Assembly (NCBI GenBank): GCA_016210005.1
Contig: JACQVA010000141.1
Location: forward strand, 1 to 34,190
Reading direction: 5' to 3'
DNA length: 34,190 nucleotides
Source: Deltaproteobacteria bacterium
GTDB lineage: Bacteria > Desulfobacterota > Binatia > HRBIN30 > JACQVA1
In this document: in pieces, positions 3,414 to 28,284 of the stretch
How positions within the stretch are numbered: the stretch's first letter is position 1
Layout: each line of letters begins with the position of its first letter
Program-made: the position numbers and the translations under genes
Notes under the pieces: generated by a model
Told to the model about the DNA's origin: nothing
The model's input: the letters and a program-made list of their open reading frames with translations, nothing else
Databases searched by the model: none

Positions 3414-5180
3414 CTACAGGTGGAAGAGGCGCCGCAGCAAGTCGGGCACATCGGCGGCGTTGATTCGGCCGTCGTCGTTGGCATCAGCGCCGTCGCAGGG
3501 CGGAGCGGGGTCGAATAGGCGCTCGAACAATGCCGCCAAATCCGCGCTCGTAACCGTTGCATCGCAGTCGGCATCGCCCCGTGGCAGGCGTGGGGTCGGC
3601 GAAGGAGTGGCAGTGGCGGTTGGTGTGCCGGTACGTGTCGGAGTGCCGGTCTTGGTCGGAGTGCCGGTGCGCGTGGGCGTGCGGGTGTTGGTCGGCGTAC
3701 GAGTAGCGGTGCTGGTGCGGGTAGCTGTCGGTGTGCGGGTCGGTGTGGCGGTCGCGGTGAGCGTGGCAGTGCGCGTGGGCGTGCGCGTGGCGGTGGCGGT
3801 GCGCGTGGATGTCGGAGTTATCGTTGGGGTCCTCGTTCGGGTGAAGGTGGGTGTCGCGGTCGGTGTCGCGGTCGGCGTGAACGGCGGCGCCACACCGTTG
3901 CTCAGCACGACCGAGAGCGAGGTGCCGGTCTCGTCTCCGAGATCGACGGCAGCCAGGTCGGTGTAACCGTCGCCGTTGAGATCGGAGGCGCTCAGCGCGC
4001 TCGGCATTTGATCGAGTGCGGAGGCGATGCTGGCCGAGGCGAAAGTGGCGTCGCCGTTGCCCAGCCGGACCGCGATTGCACCATTTGTATCGTCCGGAGC
4101 GTCGAGCACGGCCAGGTCGGTGATCTCGTCGCGATTGAAATCGCCCGCTGCCATGGCCGGCCCGACGCCGGGGGTGAACAGCGGGGGCGCCGTGACGAAG
4201 GGATAGAACATCGGCGCAGCGAAAGCGAAGCCGCCTGGGCTGATGCCGGTATTGCGGTGAATGGCGACGCGGCCGTCGGCATTGAGGGCGGCAAGGTCAA
4301 GGCGGCCGTCGCGATCAAGGTCAGCCGCCACCAGCGTGAAGGGGTCGGCGGCAGTCGCAAGCAGAAGTGCAGGTTCAAACGGCATGCCCGAGGCGCTGCC
4401 GTTGTTGCGGTGCAGGGCGATGGCGTTCTCGCCCTGGAGCGCCACTGCCAGATCGCGCGCGCCGTCGCCATCGAAATCGCCGGCGGCCAAGGCGGTCGGG
4501 AGCGCGCCCGCCGGCGTGGTTGGGGTCGAGCCGGTGCCGAGCAGCGGTGATTGCTTCAGGAGCGAGCCACTTTGGCGCCGATAGAATGCGAGGAAACCGG
4601 TGCCGGAGTCGCCCGCGACCAGATCGAGCAAGCCATCACCACTGAAATCTGCGATCACGAGCGAGTCGAACGAGCAAGGTTGCGGCGGATCGGCCAGCTC
4701 GTTGCACACCGAGTTGGCCGGAAATGCGCCGTGCAATTTCAGCTCGCGGCCCTCGTAGACCCGCAGCACCGGCATGCCGCTGAAGCCCGCGAGGCCCTCG
4801 CCGGCGATGATGACGTCGGCGAGCGCGTCGTCCGGCGCCAGCGCAGCGACGGCCAGCGCATTCATGGCCAAGACGCCGCCGCTCAAAGTGATCTGCAGGT
4901 CCGGCGGTGCCACCGGTGTTTGTACCGCGAAGCTGCCGTCGCCGCGACCGAGAAAGAGATTGAGAGTGTTCTGGGCTTCGCTATTGATGCTGGCGCTGAC
5001 GAGATCGGCAATGCCATCGCCGCTGATGTCGCCGCCGGCAACGCCGACAGCGATAGCGCTGCTGGAGATGGGATAGGTGCGGCGCGGGCCGAAGGTGGCG
5101 CTCGGCGGCGCCGCGAAAAGCGGGCGCGGGAACAACGCGACGAACGCTGCCAGAGCGGTGATGGCTGCTGTTGCACGCAT
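3414..5180 (-). CDS. Secreted seven-bladed FG-GAP propeller with Pro-Thr linker and type I-like dockerin
   Basis: This is an exported protein of 588 residues. It has a signal peptide (residues 1-24, ending LFAA) and about seven FG-GAP/VCBS-type repeats with calcium-loop motifs such as GDFDGDGARDLA and DLDRDGRLDLA, enough for one integrin-type beta-propeller (one repeat, near DDALADVIIAG, is degenerate). A long Pro/Thr/Arg linker (about residues 430-530) follows, then a C-terminal pair of EF-hand-like loops (GDADCDATVTSADL and DANDDGRINAADV). That pair resembles a type I dockerin, the module that plugs into cohesins. I chose ATG 5180 over the longer frame from 5291 because it places the signal peptide at the N-terminus. 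The longer frame would also run over the dnaA promoter. There is no C-terminal membrane anchor. The Pro-Thr tract is highly repetitive and a likely site of length variation. Confidence 0.88.
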   Translation of the reverse strand: MRATAAITALAAFVALFPRPLFAAPPSATFGPRRTYPISSSAIAVGVAGGDISGDGIADLVSASINSEAQNTLNLFLGRGDGSFAVQTPVAPPDLQITLSGGVLAMNALAVAALAPDDALADVIIAGEGLAGFSGMPVLRVYEGRELKLHGAFPANSVCNELADPPQPCSFDSLVIADFSGDGLLDLVAGDSGTGFLAFYRRQSGSLLKQSPLLGTGSTPTTPAGALPTALAAGDFDGDGARDLAVALQGENAIALHRNNGSASGMPFEPALLLATAADPFTLVAADLDRDGRLDLAALNADGRVAIHRNTGISPGGFAFAAPMFYPFVTAPPLFTPGVGPAMAAGDFNRDEITDLAVLDAPDDTNGAIAVRLGNGDATFASASIASALDQMPSALSASDLNGDGYTDLAAVDLGDETGTSLSVVLSNGVAPPFTPTATPTATPTFTRTRTPTITPTSTRTATATRTPTRTATLTATATPTRTPTATRTSTATRTPTNTRTPTRTGTPTKTGTPTRTGTPTATATPSPTPRLPRGDADCDATVTSADLAALFERLFDPAPPCDGADANDDGRINAADVPDLLRRLFHL

Positions 5181-5281
5181 GCGCGCGCCAGATATAGCCG
5201 AGAAGCGCGCCCGAGGCGAAGAAAAAAATCTCGGCACTTCGCGCGCGTGCACGAATTCGCGCGCAATCCGAAAAAAAATTC

Positions 5282-5310
5282 TTGACTTCATTTTCGCGAG
5301 GGACTAATAC
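5282..5310 (+). promoter_or_regulatory. Sigma70-type promoter of dnaA
   Basis: TTGACT at 5282-5287 is separated by exactly 17 bases from TAATAC at 5305-5310. An A-run immediately upstream (5271-5279) could act as an UP element. Transcription should start near 5317 and give a leader of about 240 bases before dnaA. The 5' end of the divergent FG-GAP gene is about 100 bases away on the other side. The region is conspicuously AT-rich relative to the rest of the window. Confidence 0.75.
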
Positions 5311-7042: not shown

Positions 7043-9763
7043 GTGAGAGAAACGGCACAGCGGTTGAGAACAGTCGGCGTGGCAGTTGCCGCGCTGGTGA
7101 TCGGCCTATCAGCGCGCCCCGGCGCGGGGCAGGTCGGGCCGCTGCGCTTTCGCCTGGTGACGCCGACAATCGAAGTCACAGTGCCGCTGGACATCGGCCG
7201 CCCCGCGCTCGCCATCGCTAAGATCAATCGCGACGCCTTCGCTGACATCGTACTGCTCGACGGGGACGGCTTTCTGCTCTTCTCAGGCAACGGTGACGGC
7301 AGCTTCACCAAGTCGGGACCGATCTCGGCCGGTGAGGTGACGTTGGGTTTGGCCGCCGGTGATTTCAACGGCGACGGCGATAACGACGTCGCCGCCATCA
7401 CCGCCGTCGATGAAGTCGCCGTCATGCTCGGTAACGGCGACGGCACCTTCGGCGACCCGCAAACCTTCGGCGTCGGCGGCGCCGGCGTGGTCGCGCTGCT
7501 GGCAGCAAAGATCGACCGCGACGCCGCGCTCGACTTGGCCGTGGTTAGCCTGGACGACACGGTATACCTGCTGCGTGGCGCCGGCGATGGCACCTTCGAG
7601 CCTTTTACGACGGCCACCCTCGAAACCGGTGGTCTGGGCGCCGTTAGCATCGCCAGCGGTGATTTCAACAACGACGGCAATACCGACTTGGTTGTCGTCA
7701 ATGAGGCCTCCGATAACCTCAGCGTCTTCCTCAGCAACGGCGACGGCACGTTCAACAGCCCGCGCCTAAGTTCAACCCAAGCGGGACCGATCGCCGTGGC
7801 CGCCGGCCTGATCAACCGCGACGCCTCGCTCGATCTTGCGGTTGCCAATGGCGGAGAGGACGCCGCCAACACGGTGTCGATCCTCATCGGCCGCACCAAT
7901 GGACAGTTCGGATCGCAGCAGCCATTCACCGGACCCATACAGCCGGTCGACATCGCCCTGGCCGACGTGAACGGCGACGGCATATCCGACGCGGTGACCG
8001 GGAGCCGAGTGGATAGCGCGATAGGTCTCAACATGGGGCTGGGCGACGGTACGTTTGGCGAGACCGAGTCGCCCGCGTTTGTGCCCGGCATCATCGTCGG
8101 CGAAGGCCACATTCAGCTAGCGGTGGCGGACTTGGACAATAATGGGCTGCCGGACATCGTTGTCCTCCGCGAGAACGATGAACACCGGGGCCGCTTGGCG
8201 GTGACGATGAACCGCAGCAGCGACCCGACTCCTACAGCCACGGTCGGCGGCAGTGCGACCCCGACGGTGAGCGGCGCACCGACGCTGACCTTGACGCCGA
8301 CGCGAACCAACACCACCACACCGACCGCGACGGCGACGCCGATTCCGACCGCCCCCTACGGGGTCTGCACTTTCAGCGTAAAGGAAGAGTCCAGTAGCGC
8401 GCAGGGCCGGGCGATCGCCGCGGGCGACTTCGACGGCGACGGTACGCCGGATGTGGCGGTGGCACTGGCCGAGTCGGGCAACGACAGGGTTCACGTCGGA
8501 CTGGTTGACGCCGGCGCGTTGCGCGCGCAGTCGGGCTGTCCGGACGAGTTTACCAAGAACGGTTCGGCCGGCGATTACCCGTTACCGGATACGCCGCTAG
8601 GTCTGGCAGTAGGCGACCTCGGGGCGCCGGACGGCTGGTTGGACATCGTCGTAGTGACCGCCGGCGGTGTGGTGCCTCTGCGCAACCTCCAAGACGGTTC
8701 GTTCGGGATCGGCGAGACCATAAACGCCGGTCCGTCGCCGGTGGCGCTGACCGTGGCCGATCTCGATCGCAACGGCCGCGCCGATCTGATTGTCGCTCGT
8801 GGCGACAACAGCGTCGGCATCCTCAACGGCCAAACCGACGGCACCTACGCCCCGGTGCGGGTGGTGCCGGTGGGTGTGCCACCGGCAGCGTTGCTGGCGC
8901 GTGACCTCAACAACGATGGGCGGCCGGACCTGGCGCTGGTGAGCAATGCCACCAGCGACCTGGTGGTGTTGGTGCAAGACTCGGAGCAGGCGACCGGGTT
9001 CAAGGTGATCCTCACGCTGCGCCTGAGCGGTACGCCGACCGCGATTATCAGCGAGGACTTCAATCGCGACGGCGTGCCGGACCTCGGCGTCACCTTGGCG
9101 TCCAGTGCCTCCGGCCACCTGTTGCTCCTGACCGGGCAGCTAAACGGCGCCCTGCCGAACTACTCTTACGGTTCCCCCACCAGCGGCGGCCGCGGCCCGC
9201 AAGCGCTGGCACCTGCCGATTTCGACCGCGATGGCCGGGCCGACGTGGTGACTGCCGATACCAACGACAACACCCTGTCGTTCTTCATGAATGCCGGCGG
9301 TAGTTTTCCGCTCCGCCTCGAACCGTTGGAAGTTGGGACCGGGCCGGTCGGTGTTGTTGCCGGCGATTTCGACGGCGACGGCGGCCCCGACGCCGTCAGC
9401 GCCAACCGGGACGGCACGGTCAGCATCCTGCGCAGCAGCCAGCCGCCCCCGACGCCGACGCCGACCGAGACCTTGACGCCAACTGTGACGCCGACGCCCA
9501 GCAGCACGGCGCCGCCGACTGCTAGCGCGACTCCGACGGGCACGCCTTCCGCCACAGCCACTGTCACACCAACCCGCACCGGCACCGCGACCCGCACTCC
9601 CACGGCAACCGTTACCAAGAAGGGCATCTACGAGTTGTCCGGACAATCCTGTGCGATCGTGAGCCCGCAGCATTCGCAGGGCGATTGGAGCTTGCTGCTG
9701 CTTGCCGGTGCGGCGATCGGCATCACCCGCTGGCGCCGGCGCAGCGGCTCGGGGGCAGAATGA
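7043..9763 (+). CDS. Secreted tandem FG-GAP propeller protein (7+7 repeats) with Cys-type C-terminal anchor
   Basis: This is a 906-residue surface protein. Residues 1-29 are a signal peptide. I count seven FG-GAP repeats (for example GDFNGDGDNDVA and GDFNNDGNTDLV), a Pro-Thr linker at about 393-438, and then seven more (GDFDGDGTPDVA to DFDGDGGPDAV). A second Pro-Thr linker covers about 801-865. Two complete seven-bladed propellers are the simplest reading. The end has GQSCAIV, a hydrophobic stretch (SLLLLAGAAIGI) and the basic tail RWRRR. This resembles the MYXO-CTERM class of sorting signals, in which the conserved Cys lies before the transmembrane segment. The start is GTG 7043 with GGGAG just upstream. 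Propellers of this type bind ligands or proteins through Ca2+-stabilised loops; the partner is unknown. Confidence 0.9.
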   Translation: MRETAQRLRTVGVAVAALVIGLSARPGAGQVGPLRFRLVTPTIEVTVPLDIGRPALAIAKINRDAFADIVLLDGDGFLLFSGNGDGSFTKSGPISAGEVTLGLAAGDFNGDGDNDVAAITAVDEVAVMLGNGDGTFGDPQTFGVGGAGVVALLAAKIDRDAALDLAVVSLDDTVYLLRGAGDGTFEPFTTATLETGGLGAVSIASGDFNNDGNTDLVVVNEASDNLSVFLSNGDGTFNSPRLSSTQAGPIAVAAGLINRDASLDLAVANGGEDAANTVSILIGRTNGQFGSQQPFTGPIQPVDIALADVNGDGISDAVTGSRVDSAIGLNMGLGDGTFGETESPAFVPGIIVGEGHIQLAVADLDNNGLPDIVVLRENDEHRGRLAVTMNRSSDPTPTATVGGSATPTVSGAPTLTLTPTRTNTTTPTATATPIPTAPYGVCTFSVKEESSSAQGRAIAAGDFDGDGTPDVAVALAESGNDRVHVGLVDAGALRAQSGCPDEFTKNGSAGDYPLPDTPLGLAVGDLGAPDGWLDIVVVTAGGVVPLRNLQDGSFGIGETINAGPSPVALTVADLDRNGRADLIVARGDNSVGILNGQTDGTYAPVRVVPVGVPPAALLARDLNNDGRPDLALVSNATSDLVVLVQDSEQATGFKVILTLRLSGTPTAIISEDFNRDGVPDLGVTLASSASGHLLLLTGQLNGALPNYSYGSPTSGGRGPQALAPADFDRDGRADVVTADTNDNTLSFFMNAGGSFPLRLEPLEVGTGPVGVVAGDFDGDGGPDAVSANRDGTVSILRSSQPPPTPTPTETLTPTVTPTPSSTAPPTASATPTGTPSATATVTPTRTGTATRTPTATVTKKGIYELSGQSCAIVSPQHSQGDWSLLLLAGAAIGITRWRRRSGSGAE

Positions 9764-9786
9764 AACGCAGGCTGGGCAGCAGGGGG

Positions 9787-10029
9787 CGAGTTTCAGCTCA
9801 GGGAGCGGAGCCGGAGAAAGCGCCTCCCTCTCCCCGCATGGTTTTGCTGGGAGAGGGTAGGGGTGAGGGGTTAGTGCGTTTTTCGGTACCAATGGACACG
9901 AAGGGGGCGAAAGACGATCCCCTCACCCCAGCCCTCTCCCCGCACAACGATGCGGGGAGAGGGAGCAACCCGCGAAGGGATGTCGGTAGAGCAATGGCGC
10001 GGAGACGGCGGTCGAGTTTCAGGTCAGGG
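9787..10029. repeat. Inverted CCCTCTCCCC hairpin pair bounded by 17-bp direct repeats
   Basis: Two REP-like hairpins face each other between the FG-GAP genes: CCCTCTCCC...GGGAGAGGG at 9826-9857, and a longer CCCTCTCCCCGCA/TGCGGGGAGAGGG at 9932-9964. Their flanks (AGGGGTGAGGGG at 9860 and CCCCTCACCCC at 9919) also pair with each other. The block is bounded by the direct repeat CGAGTTTCAG(C/G)TCAGGG at 9787-9803 and 10013-10029, one mismatch in 17. CCCTCACCCC/CCCTCTCCCC hairpins are a familiar dispersed intergenic repeat in many bacterial genomes. The right-hand copy runs into the 5' end of the next gene. Confidence 0.75.
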
Positions 10030-11841
10030 GTGAGGGGTTTAGACGCGGAGCGGCGGGGCACTGACAGGACGCTTATCGCGCTTGGCGTACTGGCACTGCT
10101 GGTCCTGCCGGCAACTGCCCACAGCAGCGAAGATCTGCCGAGCTACGTCGGCTGTAGCATCAAGGTGCAGGCCGGGGATGGGACGTTGACGCCGAAGCCA
10201 CAGGCGGTCGCGGCGGGTGATTTCGACCGCGATGGCAACCAGGACTTCGCCGTCGTCGATAACGCCAACAATCATGTTGTCGTCTTCCTCGCTCAGCGCG
10301 AGGTGTTTGCCCGCGGCGACTGCGCCGGGGCGGTGCAGCAGCGAGTTGTAAGTGTCGGCGCGGCACCGTTTGCGCTGACGGTGGCGGACGTGGGTGGAAA
10401 CGGCACGCCCGATATCGTTGTCGCCGAGTCGGCGGAGATCGCCATTTTGAGCGGCAGCGGCGACGGCGACTTCTCGCTTCAGACGGTGTTCATTCCCGGC
10501 GCCGATCCGCGTGCGGTTGCGGTTGCCGATCTCGACGGCGATGCCCTGCAAGACTTGGCGGTTGCCGACGGCGCCGGCAGAGCCGTGCGGCTGTTCTTTG
10601 GCCGCGCCAGTGGCGGGTTTGATACCGCGACGTTATCCCTGGGCCAGACCGCTGTGGGGGCGGCGATTGCCGATGTGAACCGTGACGGGCGCTTAGACTT
10701 AGTGTCGCTGACCGATCAGCAGGCCCTGGTGCAGCTGCAAGACGCGGCAGTCGCGCGCTCCTTCGACGGCCCACAAGTGGCGATGTCCGGATCCGTGCTG
10801 CAAGCCTTCGGCGTCGGCGACTTCGATCGCAACGGTGTACCCGACATCGCGATGGCGAGCGCAACCGGCTTGATTGACCTGGCCACCGGAACCGCCGTCG
10901 GCGATGGGTCAGTCACCTACGCGCAGCGTCGCGTTGACGAGGCCCCGTTTGCAGTGGCGGCGTTGGCGGCCGGTGATCTCAACCGTGACGGCAAGCTGGA
11001 CTTGGTGGTCGCCGGCGAGAACTCGGCTCACCTGTTGCCAGGAAGCGGTGACGGCAACTTCGATAGCCCAAGTGATTACGGCCTGGGTACCGAGCCGACC
11101 GGCTTGGCGCTGGCGGACGTTGATGGGGATGGCTTGCCGGACGTTCTCAGTGCCAACCTGCTGGCAGGTACGGTGACGGTGTTGCTCAGCAGCAACCCGC
11201 CACCGACACCGTCGCGCACCCCCACCGACACGCCCGGGACGGCTACGCCGACCGAGACGCCGAACCGCGACTGCTGTTCGGTGCATAGCGGCGCCGGCTG
11301 CGCCGACGCGATTTGCGAAAACAAAGTCTGCGCCTTGGACCCCGACGGCTTCTGTTGTGTGCAGGGTTGGGACGAGAATTGCGTGGCGCTTGCGCGCGCG
11401 TCTCAGGCCGAGTGCGACTGCCCGGCGCTGACGCCGACACCCACAGACACGCCGCCGGCAACCGATACGCCCACCGACACGCCCACCGCGCCGCCGACTC
11501 TCACACCGACGCCGACAGAGAGCGCAACGCCGACGGCGACCAGGGAAGGTCCGACGCCGTTGGATACACGCACCCCAACCCCGACGTTCACGATTACGGG
11601 CACGCTGCCGCCGACAGCGACACCTAGCGCAACGCCGTCGCTGACACCGACGGTCACCGCAACCGCCACGGCTACGCGCACACCGACGGCAACGTTGACC
11701 CCGACAGTAACCCTGACGCCGATCGGCGGCTTCGGCCTGCAGGGCGAAGGTTGTGCGCTGCACCCGGGCGGCTCCGGTGGCTGGGGTGGCTTGCTGCTAG
11801 CGTTGCCGCTGTGGTTAACGGCGCGGCGGCGCCGGCGCTAA
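9994..11841 (+). CDS. Secreted seven-bladed FG-GAP protein with Cys-rich module and Cys-type C-terminal anchor
   Basis: The product is about 615 residues. A basic N-terminus leads into the signal-peptide core TLIALGVLALLVLPATAHS. Seven FG-GAP repeats follow (GDFDRDGNQDFA through DVDGDGLPDVL), forming one propeller. A Pro-Thr linker is interrupted by a compact Cys-rich module at about 424-479 (CCSVHSGAGC, FCCVQGWDENCV). A second Pro-Thr linker leads to the end GEGCALHPGG, then a hydrophobic stretch and RRRRR. This is the same type of anchor as in the preceding protein. The start is uncertain: ATG 9994 or GTG 10030, both within or next to the REP-like block, with no clear ribosome binding site. 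The frame is open further upstream through the repeat, but that part is repeat-encoded. A role at the cell surface is inferred; the ligand is unknown. Confidence 0.87.
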   Translation: MARRRRSSFRSGVRGLDAERRGTDRTLIALGVLALLVLPATAHSSEDLPSYVGCSIKVQAGDGTLTPKPQAVAAGDFDRDGNQDFAVVDNANNHVVVFLAQREVFARGDCAGAVQQRVVSVGAAPFALTVADVGGNGTPDIVVAESAEIAILSGSGDGDFSLQTVFIPGADPRAVAVADLDGDALQDLAVADGAGRAVRLFFGRASGGFDTATLSLGQTAVGAAIADVNRDGRLDLVSLTDQQALVQLQDAAVARSFDGPQVAMSGSVLQAFGVGDFDRNGVPDIAMASATGLIDLATGTAVGDGSVTYAQRRVDEAPFAVAALAAGDLNRDGKLDLVVAGENSAHLLPGSGDGNFDSPSDYGLGTEPTGLALADVDGDGLPDVLSANLLAGTVTVLLSSNPPPTPSRTPTDTPGTATPTETPNRDCCSVHSGAGCADAICENKVCALDPDGFCCVQGWDENCVALARASQAECDCPALTPTPTDTPPATDTPTDTPTAPPTLTPTPTESATPTATREGPTPLDTRTPTPTFTITGTLPPTATPSATPSLTPTVTATATATRTPTATLTPTVTLTPIGGFGLQGEGCALHPGGSGGWGGLLLALPLWLTARRRRR

Positions 11842-20193: not shown

Positions 20194-20451
20194 CTAACGG
20201 CGCAACGCTGCCGGCAGCAGATCGAGTAGCTGCTCGGGATCGGTGGGCTCGTCACGGTAGTGCAGGGCAGCCATGAACTCGGTGTGCGAAAAACGCTTGG
20301 CGTCCCACTGGTGGCGCACCTGCCAGCTCCCGTCGGCGCCGCGAATCAGCAGTTGAACCGTTTGCTGTTCGGTGAGGCCGACGGCTGCACGCTCGCTCGG
20401 CGTGGTCGCGAAGAGAACGTAGGGAGCGCGCTTGATGGTCACGAAGTACAT
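20194..20451 (-). CDS. Small hypothetical protein
   Basis: This 85-residue protein starts MYFVTIKRAPYVLFATT and is mixed alpha/beta in character, with WQVRHQWDAKRFS in the middle and an acidic-Leu C-terminus (DPEQLLDLLPAAL). I recognise no domain. ATG 20451 is chosen because AAGG lies six bases upstream; the frame can be extended by 12 residues. The stop codon lies close to a CTGCTAACGGCGC sequence that resembles the adjacent repeat element, so the C-terminus may have been shaped by it. It lies 65 bases after the next upstream gene on the same strand and could be co-transcribed. Confidence 0.6.
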   Translation of the reverse strand: MYFVTIKRAPYVLFATTPSERAAVGLTEQQTVQLLIRGADGSWQVRHQWDAKRFSHTEFMAALHYRDEPTDPEQLLDLLPAALRR

Positions 20452-20516
20452 AGCTGCCTTGTTAGCTGCAGACCCAAAGCGAGGCAAATGGCCGCCTGCC
20501 GGTCAAACCAAGCAGC

Positions 20517-21191
20517 CTAGCGAGCCGGCAAGCGCACTGGGCAGACCCCGAGCGCGCCGTGATGGACGGGCGGCGAGTAGCTCAGAATCTGCATCCCGTT
20601 TTCGCCAAAGCTCCCCACATTGAGATAGCCGTTGTCGAGCGTGCGCGAAGTTGACCAGTCCCAAGCCTGGCCTAGCAGGCGGACGCCGCGGGCGGAGTGA
20701 TAGACGATCAGATCATAGGCGATTTCCACCGCCGAACGCCGGCAGATCAGGGCAGCGGGCAGCCCGAGATCGGCGGCGTAGCGAGCAATCTGCTGGTCCT
20801 GCTCGTCGTAGGGCAGGTTGCGGGTTTCGTCAAGAACCTGCTTGCGCACCAATACCCAGCCCGCGCTACAGTGCTCGCTGCCGGCCAGCGGTTCGAGCGC
20901 GATACCCCATTCGTCCTTCAGCAAATAGCCCGAGTTGCGCAGCAGCCGCGAGTCGAAGGCGGCGGGGAAGCGCTCGATCAACCGTGACAGAGAAAGCGGT
21001 GTGCTGCGGTCGTGGTCCACACGTAGCAGCAGCATTTCGCCGCCGGGGGCGGCCGCCGCTAACTCGCTCTCGGCATAGGGAATCGGGGGGGTGGGCGGAA
21101 CGAAGTCGAATGCAGCCCGGATTTCCTCCGGGCCGAGGAGATCTGCGCCCAGGAGTCGGCGCGCAGCCGCAAGGTCGATGGATGCCGCCAT
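20517..21191 (-). CDS. Hypothetical protein of about 224 residues
   Basis: This is a soluble-looking protein with no signal peptide and no motif I recognise. The N-terminus reads IDLAAARRLLGADLLGPEEIRAAF, like a short helical lead. The rest has the mixed pattern of a globular domain with Trp and Cys residues (EHCSAGWVLV, LIVYHSARGVRLLGQAWDWS) and an end of GMQILSYSPPVHHGALGV. ATG 21191 is preferred over the longer frame to 21239. There is no Shine-Dalgarno sequence, but a good -10 lies only 12 bases upstream, suggesting a very short or absent leader. The gene is divergent from the FG-GAP/dockerin gene at 21460. Confidence 0.7.
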   Translation of the reverse strand: MAASIDLAAARRLLGADLLGPEEIRAAFDFVPPTPPIPYAESELAAAAPGGEMLLLRVDHDRSTPLSLSRLIERFPAAFDSRLLRNSGYLLKDEWGIALEPLAGSEHCSAGWVLVRKQVLDETRNLPYDEQDQQIARYAADLGLPAALICRRSAVEIAYDLIVYHSARGVRLLGQAWDWSTSRTLDNGYLNVGSFGENGMQILSYSPPVHHGALGVCPVRLPAR

Positions 21192-21203
21192 ACGTGGCGG
21201 CGG

Positions 21204-21231
21204 ATCATAACAACTGGCGGCGCCGACACAA
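21204..21231 (-). promoter_or_regulatory. Possible promoter of the 21191 gene, near-leaderless
   Basis: On the minus strand, TTGTGT (21231-21226), 16 bases and TATGAT (21209-21204) lie just before ATG 21191. Transcription would start about six bases before the ATG, consistent with the missing Shine-Dalgarno sequence. The -35 hexamer is poor. Confidence 0.4.
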
Positions 21232-21258
21232 GGCCGCAACGGTTACCCACACTGGGCG

Positions 21259-21279
21259 GCGCTACCATAGCGCTACCAT
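21259..21279. promoter_or_regulatory. Tandem GCGCTACCAT direct repeats upstream of a -35 box
   Basis: GCGCTACCAT occurs at 21259-21268 and 21270-21279, an 11-base period or about one helical turn. The second copy ends four bases before the TTGACA of the promoter described next. This placement suits a regulator binding two adjacent half-sites. Confidence 0.5.
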
Positions 21280-21283
21280 TCCC

Positions 21284-21313
21284 TTGACAAGCTGTTAGGT
21301 GCATCGGTAAATA
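21284..21313 (+). promoter_or_regulatory. Sigma70-type promoter of the FG-GAP/cohesin-like operon
   Basis: TTGACA (21284-21289) and TAAATA (21308-21313) are spaced by 18 bases. The predicted start near 21320 gives a leader of about 140 bases to ATG 21460. It is the only convincing promoter I find for the genes 21460-24716, which end at a strong terminator. Confidence 0.6.
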
Positions 21314-21459
21314 TGGCCGCGGATTTTAGACAGTCAGGCGGGCGGAACTTGCGGACACTCACCGAGCGAATTGCCAAAGCCGCGCCGTTGCGCCGTGCGG
21401 CGAATGCCGCAGCTTGCGGGCGCCGGCGGTGGTGCCCGGCCGAGCACGGAAGGACGACG

Positions 21460-22794
21460 ATGCTACGAGAGTTTGCCATACTGGCACTGGTGGTGCTGCC
21501 CGTGATCGGCCCGGCTACAAGCCGCGCCCAGGTTCCAGCGGTGCGCTTCGCCGAGAGGCTTGACGCACCAGTCGGCGAGGGGCCTTTCGATCTCGTGGTT
21601 GCGGACTTCAATAAGGACAATAACGCCGACGTGGCTACCGCCAATAACGACGGCGGTAACGTTTCCGTGCTGTGGGGAAACGGCGACGGAAGCTTCGAGG
21701 CGGCCGTCACCGCGCAGGCCGGGGAGTTCCCGATCGCGATCGCCACCGGACTGGTGACCAACGACAGCAACCTCGATTTGGTCGTCGCCAACGAAGTCTC
21801 GCAGGAGCTCAGTGTCCTCAAAGGTGGCGGAACCGGGAAGTCGTTTGGCTCGGCAGTGAATACCGAGCCCGTAGCTACCGCCGCCGCTGTCGTGCTGGCG
21901 GACTTCGACAACGACGGCAAGCTCGATGCCGCCACCAGCGAGATCTACGAAGACACCGTCACCGTTCAGCTGGGTAACGGCGATGCTAACGGCACCTTCG
22001 GTCTGGCTCGCTCGCTCTCGGTTCCGGGGGGACCGTTCGGTCTGGCGGTCGCTGATTTCGATGGTGACGACAAGCTTGATCTAGTGACCACGAACAGCAA
22101 TTCAACCACCGTGACCATCCTCAAGGGCAACGGCGATGGGACCTTCGCGCTCGGCGCCAGCCCGTCGGTTGCCTCATCGAGCTGCAGCACGACGGTAACC
22201 CCAGCGGGGGTCACCACCGGCGACGTCAACGGCGACAACAAGCCGGATATCGTGGCGACCAACGAGGACTGTGACAATGTCGCCGTGTTGATCAACGACG
22301 GCGATGGCACGTTCGGCGCGGCGCGCTTCCTCGACAGCGGGCTGTTCGGTTTCCCCGAGGCCGCGAGGATCGCGGATCTCAACGGTGACGGTTACGCCGA
22401 CATCGCTGCGGCCAACAGTTACAACGACAACGTTTCCGTGTTCTTGGGACACGGCGATGGCATGTTCGAGGCTGCCGTCTTCTTCACGGTCGATACCACG
22501 CCGTTCGCTTTGGCCGTGGCCGACGTCAACAACGATACCTTTCCCGATATCGTGACCGCCAACGCCGACGGCAACAATGTTTCCGTGCTCTTGAATGATC
22601 GCGCCGGAGGGTGTACTGGCGATTGCGACGCGAGTGGTGACGTGACCGTGGACGAGCTGGTAAAGGGCGTGAACATCGCCCTGGGGACTTCGCCGTTGTC
22701 GGAATGTTCGTCCTTCGACAAGGACAACAGCGGCGACGTTACGGTGGACGAACTGGTGAGCGCCGTGAATATTGCGCTGGGCGGGTGTGCATGA
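21460..22794 (+). CDS. Secreted seven-bladed FG-GAP protein with Cys-clamped dockerin-like dyad
   Basis: The product is 444 residues. A signal peptide (residues 1-25, ending TSRAQ) is followed by seven FG-GAP repeats with Ca2+-loop motifs (DFNKDNNADVATAN, DFDGDDKLDLVTTN, DLNGDGYADIAAAN), predicting one propeller. The C-terminal 60 residues are two EF-hand-like segments, DVTVDELVKGVNIALG and DVTVDELVSAVNIALG, bracketed by four cysteines (CTGDC, ECSS, GGC). I read this as a dockerin-like module. The start is well supported by GGAAGGA five bases before ATG 21460. It is the first gene of a block that also encodes two cohesin-like proteins and a dockerin-bearing protease. The likely role is a cargo or ligand-binding unit on a surface complex. 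Confidence 0.9.
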   Translation: MLREFAILALVVLPVIGPATSRAQVPAVRFAERLDAPVGEGPFDLVVADFNKDNNADVATANNDGGNVSVLWGNGDGSFEAAVTAQAGEFPIAIATGLVTNDSNLDLVVANEVSQELSVLKGGGTGKSFGSAVNTEPVATAAAVVLADFDNDGKLDAATSEIYEDTVTVQLGNGDANGTFGLARSLSVPGGPFGLAVADFDGDDKLDLVTTNSNSTTVTILKGNGDGTFALGASPSVASSSCSTTVTPAGVTTGDVNGDNKPDIVATNEDCDNVAVLINDGDGTFGAARFLDSGLFGFPEAARIADLNGDGYADIAAANSYNDNVSVFLGHGDGMFEAAVFFTVDTTPFALAVADVNNDTFPDIVTANADGNNVSVLLNDRAGGCTGDCDASGDVTVDELVKGVNIALGTSPLSECSSFDKDNSGDVTVDELVSAVNIALGGCA

Positions 22795-22858
22795 CGGCGG
22801 TGGGGTCTGGTTTTGGGCGACGAGCGGCTCCGGTATGCGGCCGCGGGAGGGTGTCTTG

Positions 22859-23782
22859 ATGCTAAGGCGGGCAGCTTTGAGCGGCTTGGTGGCCGTCGTG
22901 GCCGCATGGGGTGTGGTGCAGCCCAGCGGAGCGCAGTCGCAGCCGCAGTCCTGCAGCACAAATTGCGCGCAGTTGAGCGTAACCGGTGCCACCGGCACGC
23001 CCGGAGGCACTGTTACGATCGGAGTGGCGTTTACCCAAGGCCCGGATGACGGCGAGGCCGCCAAAGGCAATGACGAGACCGCCGCCATCGCCTTCACGCT
23101 CGGCATTCCGGGCGTGGGCTCGGCAACTCCGCTGAGCCTGGCCGACTGCACCGTCGGCAGCGATGGGTTGACGCCGGCGATCAAGGTCGCTGATGCGATC
23201 AAGGACACGTTCAAGGTGGTGCTCGAAAACCTCCAGTGCACCACCGTCACCGGAACTCCGCGTAATCGCTGCTTGTGTCCCGGCGCCGAGCAGCAGCGCG
23301 ACAACTTCATCAACGTGGTTGTCTACGGGCCCAAGGACTTGCCCGCCAGCGGGCCGGTTGATATTCCGGTGCTCCCCAGCGGATCGCTGATGACGATTGA
23401 TCTCAAGATCGATGCGGCGGGCACCACCCCGGTGCACGTGTTCGCCGAGACCGACAACCAGAGTGAAAAGCCGAAACCGCAGTTCGGTGCATTCCTGTCG
23501 ATCGGCGACAAGTCGGCGGTCGATCAAACCTTCAATTCCGAGCGCACCGTGAGCAAGGTGGCGATCACCAACGCCGCGGTCAGCGCAGGAACGGCGTGCG
23601 TTGGCGATTGCGATAGCAGCAACGATGTCACCGTCGATGAGTTGGTGAAGGGTGTGAACATCGCCTTGGGTACCGCCCAGCTGACAGATTGCCCGTCGTT
23701 TGATAAGGACAACAGCGGCGATGTTACCGTGGATGAGCTGGTGACCGCAGTGAATTACGCCCTCGGGAGTTGTCCGTCGTAA
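22859..23782 (+). CDS. Exported cohesin-like protein with Cys-clamped dockerin-like dyad (adaptor candidate)
   Basis: The product is 307 residues with a signal peptide (ending QPSGAQS). The central region (about 30-235) starts LSVTGATGTPGGTVTIGVAF, the opening of a cohesin-like or Ig-like beta-sandwich. It continues to SGSLMTIDLKIDAAGTTPVHVF, similar to late cohesin strands. It contains several cysteines (CSTNC, CLCPG). The C-terminal dyad at about 246-307 (CVGDCDSSNDVTVDEL, DKDNSGDVTVDEL) is almost the same as that of the preceding protein, so a module was copied. Holding both cohesin-like and dockerin-like parts, it looks like an adaptor. The cohesin assignment here is weaker than for the next gene. 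GGGAGG eight bases upstream supports ATG 22859. It follows the previous gene by 64 bases. Confidence 0.8.
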   Translation: MLRRAALSGLVAVVAAWGVVQPSGAQSQPQSCSTNCAQLSVTGATGTPGGTVTIGVAFTQGPDDGEAAKGNDETAAIAFTLGIPGVGSATPLSLADCTVGSDGLTPAIKVADAIKDTFKVVLENLQCTTVTGTPRNRCLCPGAEQQRDNFINVVVYGPKDLPASGPVDIPVLPSGSLMTIDLKIDAAGTTPVHVFAETDNQSEKPKPQFGAFLSIGDKSAVDQTFNSERTVSKVAITNAAVSAGTACVGDCDSSNDVTVDELVKGVNIALGTAQLTDCPSFDKDNSGDVTVDELVTAVNYALGSCPS

Positions 23783-23912
23783 CCGAGGGGTGAAGGATAG
23801 AGGGTACTGAGGTACGGAATCGCGGGTGCCGCCGCGGCACAGGCCGACGCGGTGGCCCCGAATGGGAAAAGTTGGCCGGGCATCTCATAGCTCAAAAGAA
23901 GGAGGGTAGACG

Positions 23913-24716
23913 ATGAGAACGCGGACAGGGAGCAACATGCTTCGGGGCCTCGCAGTCGGCGCGATTGCGTTGCTGGGGGCAGGCACTGCACAGGCGGCAG
24001 TGTCGATCAACGTCGGCAGTGCCTCAGGCAAGGCCGGCGACACGGTGGAAGTATCCGTGACACTGACAGCCGACGGCGGCGAGCACGCGGTGGGGACGCA
24101 GAACGACACGACTTTCGATCCCGCCAGCATCACCGTGGTGGCGAAGGCGAACAAGAAGCCGGATTGCGCAGTCAATCCTGACATCGACAAGACTGCCAGC
24201 TCCTTCGCGTTTCGCACTGCAACCGGAACCTGCGATCCGACCACGACGGCGTGCAGTGTCGTTCGCGCGATCGTGCTGTCCACAGACAACGTGGACGACA
24301 TTCCGAACGGGGCTACGCTTTACACCTGCAAGGTCAAGATCGGTGACAGCACGCCGGAGGGCTCGTACCCGTTGACCGCCAGCGGCGCCATTGCTAGCGA
24401 CCCGAGCGGCACCCGGCTCTCGGGAGTTACCGCTAACAACGGTGCGATCAACGTTACCGCCGATACACCGACGCCAACACCGACGGATACACCGCCGCCA
24501 CCTACGGACACGCCGGTGCCGCCGACCCCGACGGTCACCAACACGGTGCCGCCGACGAATACGCCGGTGCCGTCGACTCCGACAAATACCCGTCCGCCGG
24601 GTGGCGACGACGATGACGACGGTTGCCAGATCGTGGCGACGCAGAAGAGCCACAGCGCATGGCTGCTCTTGCTGCCCGCTGCCGCGTTGCTCTGGCTGCG
24701 CCGGCGCCCGCGCTAA
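23913..24716 (+). CDS. Cohesin-like protein with Pro-Thr stalk and Cys-type C-terminal anchor (anchoring scaffoldin candidate)
   Basis: The product is 267 residues. After the signal peptide (ending TAQA) comes a single cohesin-like domain (about 29-180). It opens VSINVGSASGKAGDTVEVSV, has TFDPASITVV in the middle, then TLYTCKVKIGDSTPEGSYPL, and closes NNGAINV. These are the landmark segments of cohesins: a G-x-A-G-x-x-V start and the final N-G-x-I-x-V strand. A Pro-Thr stalk (about 184-230), an acidic patch (GDDDDDG) and the end DGCQIVATQKSHSAWLLLL with RRRPR complete a surface anchor. AAGGAGG seven bases upstream gives ATG 23913 strong support. A very good terminator follows. It has the parts expected of a protein that holds dockerin-bearing partners on the cell surface. 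Confidence 0.88.
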   Translation: MRTRTGSNMLRGLAVGAIALLGAGTAQAAVSINVGSASGKAGDTVEVSVTLTADGGEHAVGTQNDTTFDPASITVVAKANKKPDCAVNPDIDKTASSFAFRTATGTCDPTTTACSVVRAIVLSTDNVDDIPNGATLYTCKVKIGDSTPEGSYPLTASGAIASDPSGTRLSGVTANNGAINVTADTPTPTPTDTPPPPTDTPVPPTPTVTNTVPPTNTPVPSTPTNTRPPGGDDDDDGCQIVATQKSHSAWLLLLPAAALLWLRRRPR

Positions 24717-24743
24717 CCGGGTAGCAGCTAACACAGCCGGTGA

Positions 24744-24773
24744 AGAGGGGGCCGCAAGGCCCCCTCTTTTTTT
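24744..24773 (+). terminator. Strong intrinsic terminator
   Basis: AGAGGGGGCC-GCAA-GGCCCCCTCT is a perfect 10-bp stem with a GCAA tetraloop, followed by a run of seven T. It ends the cohesin-like operon. The next reading frame opens immediately after it, at GTG 24774. Confidence 0.92.
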
Positions 24774-26978
24774 GTGGCCTGGGTGCGAAGAGTGCAGCGG
24801 CAGAAGTGGCCGCGCCGGCTGAGGCGCGGCGCTGCTGTGCTCGGCTCGGCACTCTACCTGCTTGCCCCGGCCAGAGGTTTGAGCGAGCTAGTCGGCTACC
24901 AAGCGCGTTCGCTTGCGCGCGCGCCGTCAGCCGAGCAGCTCGACCTGCAACTCAAGCGTGTCGCCAGCGGTGCGCAGGCGCCCATAGTGCCGCTTTTCGG
25001 AACTCTGTTGGCGCCGGGACTGGCCGTGGCGCCAACGCGGCTGCCCAAGGTGGCGGTCTTGGCGCGGCTCGAATCAGCGGCTTCAGCGGCTGAGTTGTCG
25101 GCAGCGGGCTACCCGCCGCGCGCGCAGGTCGGCCGCGTGGCCGCGCTCGCGCTGTCGCCAAATGAGCTTAGCTCCGTGGCTAAAGTGCCGGGCGTGCTGC
25201 GGCTCCAGCCGCAGCTACAACATCGGCTGCACCTCGACGTGAACACGGCGAGGAATCACGCGGTCGAAGCTCGTGTCAATAGCGGCGTCACCGGTGCCGG
25301 CGTGCTTATCGGCGTCATCGACACCGGCATCGACTGGCGCCATGGTGACTTCCGCCACGCTGACGGCAGCACTCGTATCCGTGCCGTGTGGGACCAGGTT
25401 GACGACAGTTTCGCCAACTCCGGCGGTGCGGTCGGAAGCCTGCCGCCGGTGGACGATGGGGCAGGGGCCCCGCTGGGTACGGTCTACACCGCGGCGCAGA
25501 TCAATGCCGCGCTGGCAGGTGCCGGCACAGTCAACAGCCGGGACCTCGTCGGTCACGGCACCCACGCGGCCGGCTGTGCGGCCAGCAACGGCCTGGCGCC
25601 TGGCGGTTACATCGGCGTGGCGCCGGCGGCGGAGATCTTGATGGTGCGCGCCGGGGGCGAAGCCGCTGAGGACTTCAACCTCGTCGGGGACGTCCTCGCC
25701 GGGCTGCAGTGGCTCGGTGAGCAGGCCGATCAAAGCGGACAGCCGCTGGTCGTCAGCATGAGTTTCGGCCATCACTTCGGTGCCCATGACGGGACGGATG
25801 CGGAAGAAGTGGCGATTGACGATTTCACCAGCCGTTCGGGCCGGGCTGTGGCAGTGTCGGCCGGTAATGAACGCGCCGCCGCCATTCACACTAGCGGCTC
25901 CGCCCTGGGCAGCCGCGCACTCCAACTCGCAGTCACCAGTGAGAGCAACGATTTCCTGGCGGTCGACTGCTGGCTCGCCGGTGACGATGTCGTCGACTTG
26001 GGTTTCTTCGATCCCGACGGGCTTGGCTTCTCCGATGCCGATGTCACGCCCGGTGAATGCGTGCAAGTGGAGAATCGCACCAACCGCGTCAGTACCTGCG
26101 TTGATACCGTGAACCCACTCAACGGCAGCCGCGAGGTGCTCTTCCTGGCCGAGCCGCGCGACCACGGCGGCACGATTACCACCGGCACTTGGCAGATTGT
26201 CCTACGCGATGAAGGCGGCGTCAGCGACGGACGCTACCACTGTTGGTCGGTCAACTATCAGCCGTTCACCGCCGACGTTGATAGCACTGCCACCGTGGCG
26301 ATGCCCGCTACCGCTCGCGGCGCGCTCGCTGTCGGCGCTGCCAGCCTGCGGGCGAGCTGGCCGAGTGCGGGTAATCCGAACACGCAAATCGACTCGCCGG
26401 TTATCGACGACATCGCTTTCTTCAGCAGCAGCGGCCCGACCCGCGACGGCCGCTTCAAGCCGGACCTGGTCACCGGCGGCAACTGGGTGCTGTCGGCGTG
26501 GTCCGAGGGTGACGGCAGTGGGTCGGCCATGGCCGGCATTCCACGGGATGAGCGGCGCGTGAGCGCGGACGGCACCCACGTGGCGTCACGTGGGACCAGC
26601 TTTTCCGCCCCGCAAGTGGCCGGGGCCGTGGCCTTGATGTTGGAAGCCAATTCGCAGCTGGCTGCCGGAGAGATCGGCGATCGCTTGCGCACGAGCGCTA
26701 GCTCCGATGCCTTTACCGGCACGGTGCCCAACCCGCTGTGGGGCTACGGCAAGCTGGATGTCGCGGCCGCCGTAGCCAAGGCGGCGCTCGCCTGCGTGGC
26801 CGACTGCGATGGCGACGGCGAGGTTACCGTCAACGAGCTGGTGACTGGCGTGCTCATAGCGTTGGGCGACGCCGGCATCGCCGCCTGCCCGCGGGCCGAT
26901 CGCGACGATGACGGACTGGTGACGATCGACGAACTGACCGCCGGGGTCCTGGCGGCGCTGCACGGATGCCGGGCCTAG
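24774..26978 (+). CDS. Secreted subtilase (S8 peptidase) with Cys-clamped dockerin-like dyad
   Basis: The product is up to 734 residues. A basic N-terminus and hydrophobic core (RRLRRGAAVLGSALYLLAPARG) form a signal peptide. A propeptide-like stretch (about 30-150) precedes the peptidase domain. The triad is Asp183 (GVIDTGIDW), His261 (GHGTHAAG) and Ser609 (RGTSFSAPQVAGA). Roughly 200 residues between His and Ser include an extra beta-rich insert (LGFFDPDGLGF, EVLFLAEPRDHGG), as seen in some subtilases with a jelly-roll insert. The end (from about 674, CVADCDGDGEVTVNEL and DRDDDGLVTIDEL) is a dockerin-like dyad with four cysteines. The start is unsure: GTG 24774, 24783 and 24792 are in frame, none with a good ribosome binding site, and the first abuts the terminator. 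An extracellular protease that docks to the cohesin-like partner is the best reading. Confidence 0.9.
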   Translation: MAWVRRVQRQKWPRRLRRGAAVLGSALYLLAPARGLSELVGYQARSLARAPSAEQLDLQLKRVASGAQAPIVPLFGTLLAPGLAVAPTRLPKVAVLARLESAASAAELSAAGYPPRAQVGRVAALALSPNELSSVAKVPGVLRLQPQLQHRLHLDVNTARNHAVEARVNSGVTGAGVLIGVIDTGIDWRHGDFRHADGSTRIRAVWDQVDDSFANSGGAVGSLPPVDDGAGAPLGTVYTAAQINAALAGAGTVNSRDLVGHGTHAAGCAASNGLAPGGYIGVAPAAEILMVRAGGEAAEDFNLVGDVLAGLQWLGEQADQSGQPLVVSMSFGHHFGAHDGTDAEEVAIDDFTSRSGRAVAVSAGNERAAAIHTSGSALGSRALQLAVTSESNDFLAVDCWLAGDDVVDLGFFDPDGLGFSDADVTPGECVQVENRTNRVSTCVDTVNPLNGSREVLFLAEPRDHGGTITTGTWQIVLRDEGGVSDGRYHCWSVNYQPFTADVDSTATVAMPATARGALAVGAASLRASWPSAGNPNTQIDSPVIDDIAFFSSSGPTRDGRFKPDLVTGGNWVLSAWSEGDGSGSAMAGIPRDERRVSADGTHVASRGTSFSAPQVAGAVALMLEANSQLAAGEIGDRLRTSASSDAFTGTVPNPLWGYGKLDVAAAVAKAALACVADCDGDGEVTVNELVTGVLIALGDAGIAACPRADRDDDGLVTIDELTAGVLAALHGCRA

Positions 26979-27036
26979 CTTGGACCAAGGCCCCCAAACT
27001 TGATTGCCGTGATGCGCTCGCGTATGGGAGCCTGCA

Positions 27037-28284
27037 ATGGCCAGAAGTGAGCGGCGAGTAGTGGTTACGGGGCTCGGCCTGGTCACGCCGCTGGGCAGTA
27101 CCGTGCAGAAGAACCTCGACGCCCTGATGAACGGCCGCTCCGGGATCGGGCCGATCACGCGCTTCGACGCCTCGGGCTTCCCCAGCCGAATTGCCGGCGA
27201 GGTGCGCGACTTCGACCCGGCCGCCTTCATCGAGAAGAAGGAAATCAAGAAAATGGATCCGTTCATCCACTACGCCATCGGCGCGGCGCAGATGGCTCTG
27301 GATGACGCCGGCTTCAAGGTCGAGCCCGGCTGCGCCGAGCGGGTGGGCGTGGTGATCGGGGTCGGGCTCGGCGGTATCACCACCATCGAGGAGGCGGTCG
27401 CGACTTATGTGGCTCATGGCTTTAAGCGGATCTCCCCGTTCTTCATTCCGCGGCTGATCGCTAATCTGGCTCCGGGTCAGATCGCGATTAGGTTCGGCGC
27501 CAAAGGGGTAAATTACGCCCCGGCCAGCGCTTGTTCATCGGGCGGACATGCGATCGGCGAAGCCTACCGCTTGATCCGCTTCGGGCTGCAGGACGCGATG
27601 ATCACCGGCGGCACCGAGGCCGCAGTAACGGCATTGGGTGTCGGCGGCTTCGCCGTGATGCGCGCGCTATCAACCCGCAACGAGCAGCCGGAGAGAGCCA
27701 GCCGGCCGTTCGATCGCGGGCGCGACGGTTTCGTGATCGCGGAAGGGGCCGGAGTACTCGTGCTCGAAGCGCTCGAGTGCGCCCAGCAGCGCGCCGCCCG
27801 CATCTACGCCGAGGTCGTCGGCTACGGTGCCAACGCCGATGCCTACCATATCACCGCGCCCAGCCCTGACGGCGAGGGCGCGGCGCGTTGCATGGAGTTG
27901 GCGCTGGAGGACGGCGACGTTAGCCCGCTCGAAGTGGACTACATCAACGCCCACGGCACCTCGACCCCGTACAACGACGCGACCGAGACCCGCGCCATCA
28001 AGCGTGTGTTCGGCGAGGGCGCCGGCCGCCTGGCCGTGAGCTCGACCAAGTCTCTCACCGGACATCTGCTCGGGGCGGCGGGCGCGGTCGAAGCCATCTA
28101 CACCACCTTGGCCTTGCACAGCCAGTGCATGCCGCCGACGATCAATTACACGGATCCCGACCCGGAGTGCGATCTCGACTACGTGCCGAATCACGCCCGC
28201 CCGGCCACCATCCGGGTCGCCCTCTCCAATTCCTTCGGCTTCGGCGGCACCAACGTCTGTTTGGCCTTCCGGCGGTGGCAGTGA
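27037..28284 (+). CDS. fabF: 3-oxoacyl-ACP synthase II (FabF-type KAS)
   Basis: This 415-residue beta-ketoacyl synthase starts RRVVVTGLGLVTPLG. It has the nucleophile in ASACSSGGHAIG (Cys166), the first histidine in NAHGTSTPYND (His306) and the second in STKSLTGHLLGAAG (Lys338, His343), so it is fully catalytic. It closes with NSFGFGGTNVCL. It condenses malonyl-ACP with acyl-ACP in fatty-acid elongation, or in a specialised lipid pathway. No acpP, fabD or fabG is next to it, so it is not in the standard cluster. Its stop codon touches the start of an ArsA-like ATPase gene. A TTGATT...TATGGG pair at 27000-27028 is a weak promoter candidate ending nine bases before the ATG. Confidence 0.92.
   Translation: MARSERRVVVTGLGLVTPLGSTVQKNLDALMNGRSGIGPITRFDASGFPSRIAGEVRDFDPAAFIEKKEIKKMDPFIHYAIGAAQMALDDAGFKVEPGCAERVGVVIGVGLGGITTIEEAVATYVAHGFKRISPFFIPRLIANLAPGQIAIRFGAKGVNYAPASACSSGGHAIGEAYRLIRFGLQDAMITGGTEAAVTALGVGGFAVMRALSTRNEQPERASRPFDRGRDGFVIAEGAGVLVLEALECAQQRAARIYAEVVGYGANADAYHITAPSPDGEGAARCMELALEDGDVSPLEVDYINAHGTSTPYNDATETRAIKRVFGEGAGRLAVSSTKSLTGHLLGAAGAVEAIYTTLALHSQCMPPTINYTDPDPECDLDYVPNHARPATIRVALSNSFGFGGTNVCLAFRRWQ

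Follow-up and report, generated by a model that had tools for sequence, protein, structure and literature searches.

We analysed contig JACQVA010000141.1 (C141) of assembly GCA_016210005.1 over its entire length of 34,190 nucleotides, referred to here as the window, which belongs to a genome of 5.9 Mb (268 contigs, 97.6% complete). The window likely holds the core gene cluster of a cohesin-dockerin-like surface assembly that is not a cellulosome and is typical of the order of HRbin30, named as an order within Binatota in the available text of a genome paper on that group (PMC8262859). The core consists of three consecutive genes on the forward strand. Gene 1 (21460..22794) encodes an FG-GAP β-propeller with a C-terminal dyad (a pair of VTVDEL repeats), gene 2 (22859..23782) a weakly cohesin-like domain with a C-terminal dyad, and gene 3 (23913..24716) a cohesin on a Pro/Thr stalk with a probable anchoring tail. 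A dyad-bearing subtilase (24774..26978) follows. The original prediction, made from the letters of the window, had read these four as the cargo, adaptor, anchoring scaffoldin and enzyme of a cellulosome-like assembly without glycosidases. All four consecutive reading frames contained the parts ascribed to them, and the cohesin fold, the co-occurrence of the modules and their conserved order speak for such a reading, but the subtilase is not a core member, the dyads are of EF-hand class, and the cohesin nature of the 22859 product stays unproven.

The genome survey comprised 58 genomes, 15 of the window's order and 43 others of the same class. The window genome is designated G000; G006, one of the 15, holds two stretches of HRbin30 without a single changed letter. 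Dyads were sought with profile A1, built from the three window dyads (whose own A1 scores are training-set scores), and cohesins with family profile A2. At most 108 A1 candidates were scored per genome; the counts for G003, G007 and G009 (108 each) are minimum values, and 108 candidates were likewise scored in G005, G011 and G013, from a larger number. Signal peptides and lipoboxes were assigned by eye.

The cohesin domain and its probable anchor

Residues 31–181 of the 23913 product (cohesin domain, 24003..24455) matched the Pfam cohesin family PF00963 with an E-value of 7.8e-8 and 33.0 bits, above the gathering cut-off of 24.1, and the domain scored 33.3 bits in the whole-genome search. A model built on a 13-sequence alignment reached a predicted local distance difference test (pLDDT) value of 89 and a predicted template modelling score (pTM) of 0.86. 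Its best match among solved structures was 6kgc_A (VIA Z 18.3, root-mean-square deviation 1.8 over 137 residues), and Foldseek matched it to 6kge_A at 4.2e-11. By title, the 50 matches listed in each of the two structure comparisons were cohesins, scaffoldins and related cellulosomal or clostridial interaction modules (e.g. 2o4e). The top relative in a single-sequence PDB search was a ScaC cohesin (0.0019), and a 20-row profile of the order's cohesins matched eight PDB sequences at E≤0.1, seven of them named scaffoldins; the eighth, 5nrm_A, is labelled an endoglucanase and titled a scaffoldin B cohesin with dockerin. The domain has a true cohesin fold, i.e. a jelly-roll β-sandwich, and the comparison with cohesin folds that had been proposed along with its description as clearly cohesin-like gave a fold match.

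The rest of the 23913 product makes it an anchoring scaffoldin candidate. Apart from the cohesin it has an apparent signal peptide, a stalk of 44 residues (24465..24596) in which Pro and Thr make up 75%, and a C-terminal tail (24597..24713) of the form DDDDDGCQI-hydrophobic-RRRPR, a probable sorting or anchoring signal; the stalk and the anchor had both been predicted. When 12 chosen tails were aligned, a Cys and a Trp were invariant and were accompanied by a hydrophobic helix and an Arg-rich end, which is the MYXO-CTERM layout. The available text on MYXO-CTERM/myxosortase tails describes an invariant Cys, a transmembrane helix and an Arg-rich end (PMC11980579), and the 23913 tail shares this tripartite build. 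This tail probably fixes the protein to the cell surface. Two large FG-GAP propeller proteins of the window (7043–9763 and 9685–11841) carry a similar Cys...Trp...Arg-rich tail, so that the window has three proteins with a probable sorting signal. A tail profile search gave six matches among the 150 of 234 candidates that were scored, three of the six being the window tails used to build the profile. A second cohesin protein, on contig C77, ends weakly in the same tail form.

The N-terminal domain of the 22859 product (22940..23587) is more weakly characterized. It had no cohesin match in Pfam, and alignment with the order's cohesins by hhalign gave a probability of 21% and an E-value of 0.001. 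When its profile was compared with the PDB at E≤1, the two matches obtained were both cohesins (0.09 and 0.25), covering the first strands only. A model of the domain from two sequences (pLDDT 33.5) was too poor for use. The earlier label of a weak cohesin-like domain therefore keeps its weak profile likeness, but is not confirmed by Pfam and stays unproven. The protein also carries its own dyad (23591..23779; 132.7 bits with A1) and is probably an adaptor. Gene 2 gave one match in each of the 15 order genomes and none in the 43 others; across the class it was found in 15 of 148 genomes, precisely the order's 15 (113 matchless genomes were counted, not listed).

A family of EF-hand-type dyads on diverse proteins

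In the window genome, profile A1 matched 66 places at E≤0.01 and 61 at E≤1e-6, so the dyads seen in the window are far beyond chance. We retained 60 own-genome dyads, of which a full-length subset of 52 was used for the consensus and codon comparison and 51 for Pfam class scoring. The consensus of full copies is C-x-GDC-xxDGx-VTVDELVxGVNIALG-xxxLxxCPxFDxxxDGx-VTVDELVxAVNxALxGC. The two VTVDEL repeats lie 32 residues apart and have conserved EF-type Ca2+ loop residues, which would be expected to bind Ca2+. Loop position 12 is Glu (dockerins usually have Asp there), and four Cys are near-invariant. C1 and C59 were present in 52/52 full dyads, C5 and C32 were jointly lost in two, and C5 alone was lost in one. 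The joint loss suggests the disulfide pairs C1-C59 and C5-C32. At locus L135, both dyads are without C5 and C32 and keep C1 and C59.

The 52 full dyads, with a mean identity of 61%, sit on 35 cargo clusters. Pfam was run on the 55 dyad proteins of the window genome with at least 140 amino acids, leaving out five shorter frames; three of the 55 were the window proteins and 52 were scanned at 1e-5, of which 21 matched no family. The proteases found were S8 (twice), M4 and M10. Other carriers were CotH kinase-like, phosphoesterase-like, doubled-CXXCH/MtrC-like, LamG lectin-like, CARDB, TSP3, Ig-like, VWA, propeller and RCC1 proteins. No glycoside hydrolase (GH) family was found on any of the 55, in agreement with the predicted lack of glycosidases, and a cellulosome proper was rejected on this ground. 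Two side observations concern the cargo: a dyad protein at L142 (7405–9882) has a doubled CXXCH (MtrC/MtrF-like) and is a possible multihaem cytochrome, and the short dyad frames (63–159 amino acids) clustered at L127, L146 and L155 resemble fragmentary or decayed cargo genes.

Distribution and gene order

Both A1 dyads and the A2 cohesin family were present in 15/15 order genomes and in 0/43 of the others. Across the order, the dyad count of a genome lay between 8 and at least 108, and over the 15 genomes it rose with the number of cohesins (A1 and A2 surveys, respectively), with a Spearman coefficient of 0.82, or 0.69 after removal of genome size.

Gene order was read on fetched stretches. 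The dyad propeller, gene 2 with its dyad and one or more cohesins were consecutive on one strand in 13/15 order genomes. The cohesin gene was complete and carried a Cys/Arg tail in 10 of these 13 clusters; in the other three (G009, G013 and G014) it was cut by a contig end, the tails being unseen. A subtilase with a dyad followed the core only in G000 and its family relative G001, i.e. in 2/15 genomes, or in 2 of the 10 in which the sequence beyond the core's cohesin gene was readable. The cohesin and subtilase genes of the window are separated by a terminator-like hairpin (24742..24769, forward strand; 12-pair stem and T run); the terminator scan gave 7 such sites vs 4.4 in shuffles. The gene order thus indicates that the conserved unit comprises the propeller, the adaptor candidate and the anchor candidate, the protease being accessory cargo. 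The search of related genomes proposed earlier therefore recovered the same order for three of the four genes, together with co-occurrence of dyads and cohesins in 15/15 genomes, whereas the subtilase lost its place as a fourth part, and a four-gene protease assembly was rejected.

A second recurring cluster consists of a lipoprotein with two to four C-terminal cohesins beside a gene with an N-terminal-side dyad. It was seen in G000 (L153, C209), G001 (L161) and G013 (L170), and such lipoproteins also occur in G010 and G012; their N-terminal motif is one that we take to be a lipobox. Multi-cohesin scaffoldin-like proteins of the relatives have up to seven cohesins, and the most seen per frame in the window genome is two. 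The seven-cohesin case is a scaffoldin-like frame of 1974 residues in G006/HRbin30 (L174, 6644–12565) with a dyad near its N-terminus.

Signs of partnership between dyads and cohesins

We examined the closeness of dyad and cohesin genes in 4 of the 15 genomes, with G000 entered with 61 of its 66 dyad places. Among 46 cohesin open reading frames (ORFs), 12 contained a dyad of their own. A dyad ORF lay within 5 kb of 16 of the remaining 34, vs 3.1 expected, and chance closeness was rejected. With the core cluster excluded, the figure was 12/30 vs 2.7 expected. The expectation was Poisson rather than a contig-aware permutation, and the P values are optimistic because dyads cluster.

In 13 genomes we compared the propeller dyad with the gene-2 dyad, two modules carried by unrelated proteins. 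Identity was 69% for the two dyads of one genome and 53% for orthologous dyads of different families. The within-genome identity exceeded the genome's own between-family mean in 12/13 genomes, G014 being the exception. Such likeness of dyads on unrelated proteins is what a module fitted to a common partner would show. In the gene-2 dyad of G014 (L190), both repeats have shifted in parallel to VFGNEIT, unlike the propeller dyad of that genome.

Codons at identical residues of the 52 own dyads differed in 49.4% of comparisons, vs 53.4% expected from codon use. Codons are thus near saturation. This suggests that selection on the protein, rather than copying in the recent past, maintains the likeness, and it was the reason for rejecting a recent spread or gene conversion as the source of dyad uniformity. 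Dockerin recognition residues are at loop positions 10–11, and the cohesin face is 8-3-6-5. The two repeats of the dyad co-varied at loop positions 9–11. The co-change was marked in 66 pooled dyads of other genomes (0/2000 shuffles), a set confounded by lineage, and of modest size in the 52 own-genome dyads (26/2000 shuffles). Such covariation would follow if the partner can be faced by either of the two repeats.

Proposed assembly and alternative explanations

In the assembly that we propose, the 23913 protein would be exported and held at the surface via its Cys/hydrophobic/Arg tail, offering its cohesin on the Pro/Thr stalk. Exported proteins with a VTVDEL dyad (two predicted Ca2+ loops and probably two disulfides) would dock on this cohesin and on the other cohesins of the genome in a Ca2+-dependent manner, with the 22859 protein as a probable linking adaptor. 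Although filed elsewhere by Pfam, the dyads probably work like dockerins. The cargo would be diverse (propellers, proteases, lectin-like, adhesive and multihaem-like proteins), and its adhesive, proteolytic and lectin-like members may point to surface attachment and to matrix and protein turnover. A broader version has in our judgement about as much in its favour as against it. Here the whole order would use a general-purpose Ca2+-dependent display, in which a distinct EF-hand-type, four-Cys, two-fold symmetric dockerin-like module, probably with two binding orientations, connects between about 10 and over 100 dyad proteins per genome to cohesins anchored by a Cys/Arg tail or by lipid, for adhesion, proteolysis and perhaps electron transfer, not for cellulose breakdown.

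Several observations weigh against this explanation. Pfam assigned 50 of 51 own-genome dyads to EF-hand, and Dockerin_1 matched weakly in 6/51 (best E 0.0075); for the three VTVDEL proteins of the window, Dockerin_1 (PF00404) was not listed up to E 10. Among 276 PDB matches of the dyad profile, the 60 listed were by name calmodulin-type or other EF-hand proteins, none of them named dockerin. The earlier term 'dockerin-like' is thus justified by the two-repeat EF-loop layout but not by Pfam, where the Dockerin_1 cut-off was not reached. Outside the order, Pfam Dockerin_1 was found in 16/43 genomes, all without A2 cohesins, so dyads need not imply cohesins; 11 of the 16 were without any Pfam cohesin match, and the other five were among the six of the 43 with Pfam Cohesin at E≤0.01. 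These outside matches also mean that the restriction to the order holds for the particular families of dyad and cohesin only. As the order forms a single clade, one origin may account for the 15-to-0 split. The dyad count was correlated with genome size as well (0.85), and G002 has an exceptional ratio of 8 dyads to 12 cohesins. In G002, gene 2 is followed by cohesins in broken frames, the propeller being absent from the stretch read, and in G008 gene 2 is without an adjoining cohesin or propeller. Orthologous dyads of the same family (66.5%) were almost as similar as the within-genome pairs, and the two core dyads of G014 have diverged to 37% identity. Finally, the 23913 tail scored 15.4 bits against the MYXO-CTERM model TIGR03901, below the cut-off of 20.

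Part of this evidence would suit dyads that are self-folding, Ca2+-stabilized caps or spacers at the termini of exported proteins, with cohesins that bind something else, both modules simply belonging to the surface toolkit of the order. The EF-hand assignment, the Dockerin_1-class dyads of the 16 outside genomes and a single spread of both families within one clade all agree with such a role. Caps or spacers, however, would not be expected to co-drift on unrelated proteins in 12/13 genomes with near-saturated synonymous codons (own genome), nor to adjoin cohesin genes at roughly five times the expected frequency and to scale with them in number, and we consider this explanation unlikely. It is also conceivable that the cohesins bind each other, propellers or glycans, the core being an adhesive surface complex in which dyads are merely structural. 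Cohesin-fold modules are known outside cellulosomes, according to the available text of PMC10553843, PMC8542988 and PMC9012536, and a propeller leads the core cluster. Since it would leave unexplained why dyads co-drift and why cohesin and dyad genes lie close together beyond the core, we find this reading very improbable.

We give equally little credence to the idea of the dyad as a tag for sorting or secretion, to be recognized by machinery for export or anchoring. Such a tag would fit the 39 of 60 dyads whose last residue is no more than 12 residues from the stop codon, but 18/60 are followed by more than 100 residues, several of them near the start of the frame, and some scaffoldin-like proteins bear the dyad near the start or mid-protein. 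A C-terminal sorting tag was rejected on the basis of these 18 dyads.

Relation to known systems

Docking of dyads on cohesins would have much in common with the clostridial (type I) cellulosomes, which share the cohesin fold (the closest solved structure is CaCohA2 of C. acetobutylicum), anchored cohesin proteins, multi-cohesin scaffoldins and the use of one tag across many cargo proteins. Unlike these, the present system has no GH family on the 55 scanned dyad proteins of the window genome, its dyads are of EF-hand class with Glu12 and four Cys, and its probable anchors are a Cys/hydrophobic/Arg tail or a lipobox.

Non-cellulosomal cohesin-dockerin systems are already known. According to the available text of PMC8542988, Ca. 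Stygibacter (Cloacimonadota) has a complex with a dockerin-bearing S8/S53 peptidase and a tandem-cohesin scaffoldin with a surface C-terminal domain; GH18 and GH57 are among its cargo, and carbohydrate-binding modules are present on the scaffoldin. An uncultured lineage, a tagged S8-type peptidase and a multi-cohesin, probably surface-bound scaffoldin are common to both systems, whereas the lack of recognized GH on the dyad proteins scanned, the conserved three-gene core and dyad counts of 8 to at least 108 in a genome distinguish the one described here. Anaerobic methanotrophic (ANME) archaea and syntrophic sulfate reducers have many cohesin and dockerin proteins, for which a role in adhesion or partnership has been proposed in the parts available of PMC9012536 and PMC10553843; the former also describes ANME scaffoldin-like proteins with up to five cohesins and cargo including ABC-transporter binding proteins. 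As here, the setting is not one of cellulose degradation; the lineages are others, and those parts describe no comparable conserved core cluster. Mucinolysomes are a further non-cellulosomal system, as far as the available text of PMC12997984 goes.

The main text of the Binatota genome paper (PMC8262859) mentions no cohesin, dockerin or cellulosome, and our literature search, which left most subscription papers outside, found no cohesin-dockerin system reported for Binatota. The novel elements are the lineage, the scale, the distinct class of dyad, the anchors and a core cluster conserved across the order. Should the binding prove real, bacteria would have in cohesin-dockerin assembly a general means of decorating their surface, of which cellulosomes are one special use, and protein engineering would gain a distinct class of dockerin-like module that probably contains disulfides. 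The many dyads per genome, their co-drift and the small core cluster make pair specificity and co-evolution directly testable.

Further features of the window

The 21460 product, predicted to be an FG-GAP propeller with a dyad, matched FG-GAP_3 (PF13517) at 2.2e-44 and carries its dyad at 22609..22788 (125 bits with A1). Its frame is open from 21313, and it has a signal-peptide-like start. The subtilase assignment of the 24774 product was confirmed by PF00082 (1.3e-30) and by DTG, GHGTH and GTSFSAP, presumably the motifs of the subtilase triad, and its dyad lies at 26787..26975 (119.6 bits with A1). Its true start may be further in, and among the four products its signal peptide was the least clear. 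No promoter-like site was found in a scan of 20200–27100.

On the reverse strand, the product of 3414..5291 is another FG-GAP propeller, with a Pro/Thr stalk and a dyad. It was not recovered by profile A1 and matched Dockerin_1 at 23.0 bits, just above the cut-off of 22.9. The fifth dockerin-like protein predicted at 3414–5180 thus does carry a dyad, but one of a different class from the VTVDEL dyads of the window.

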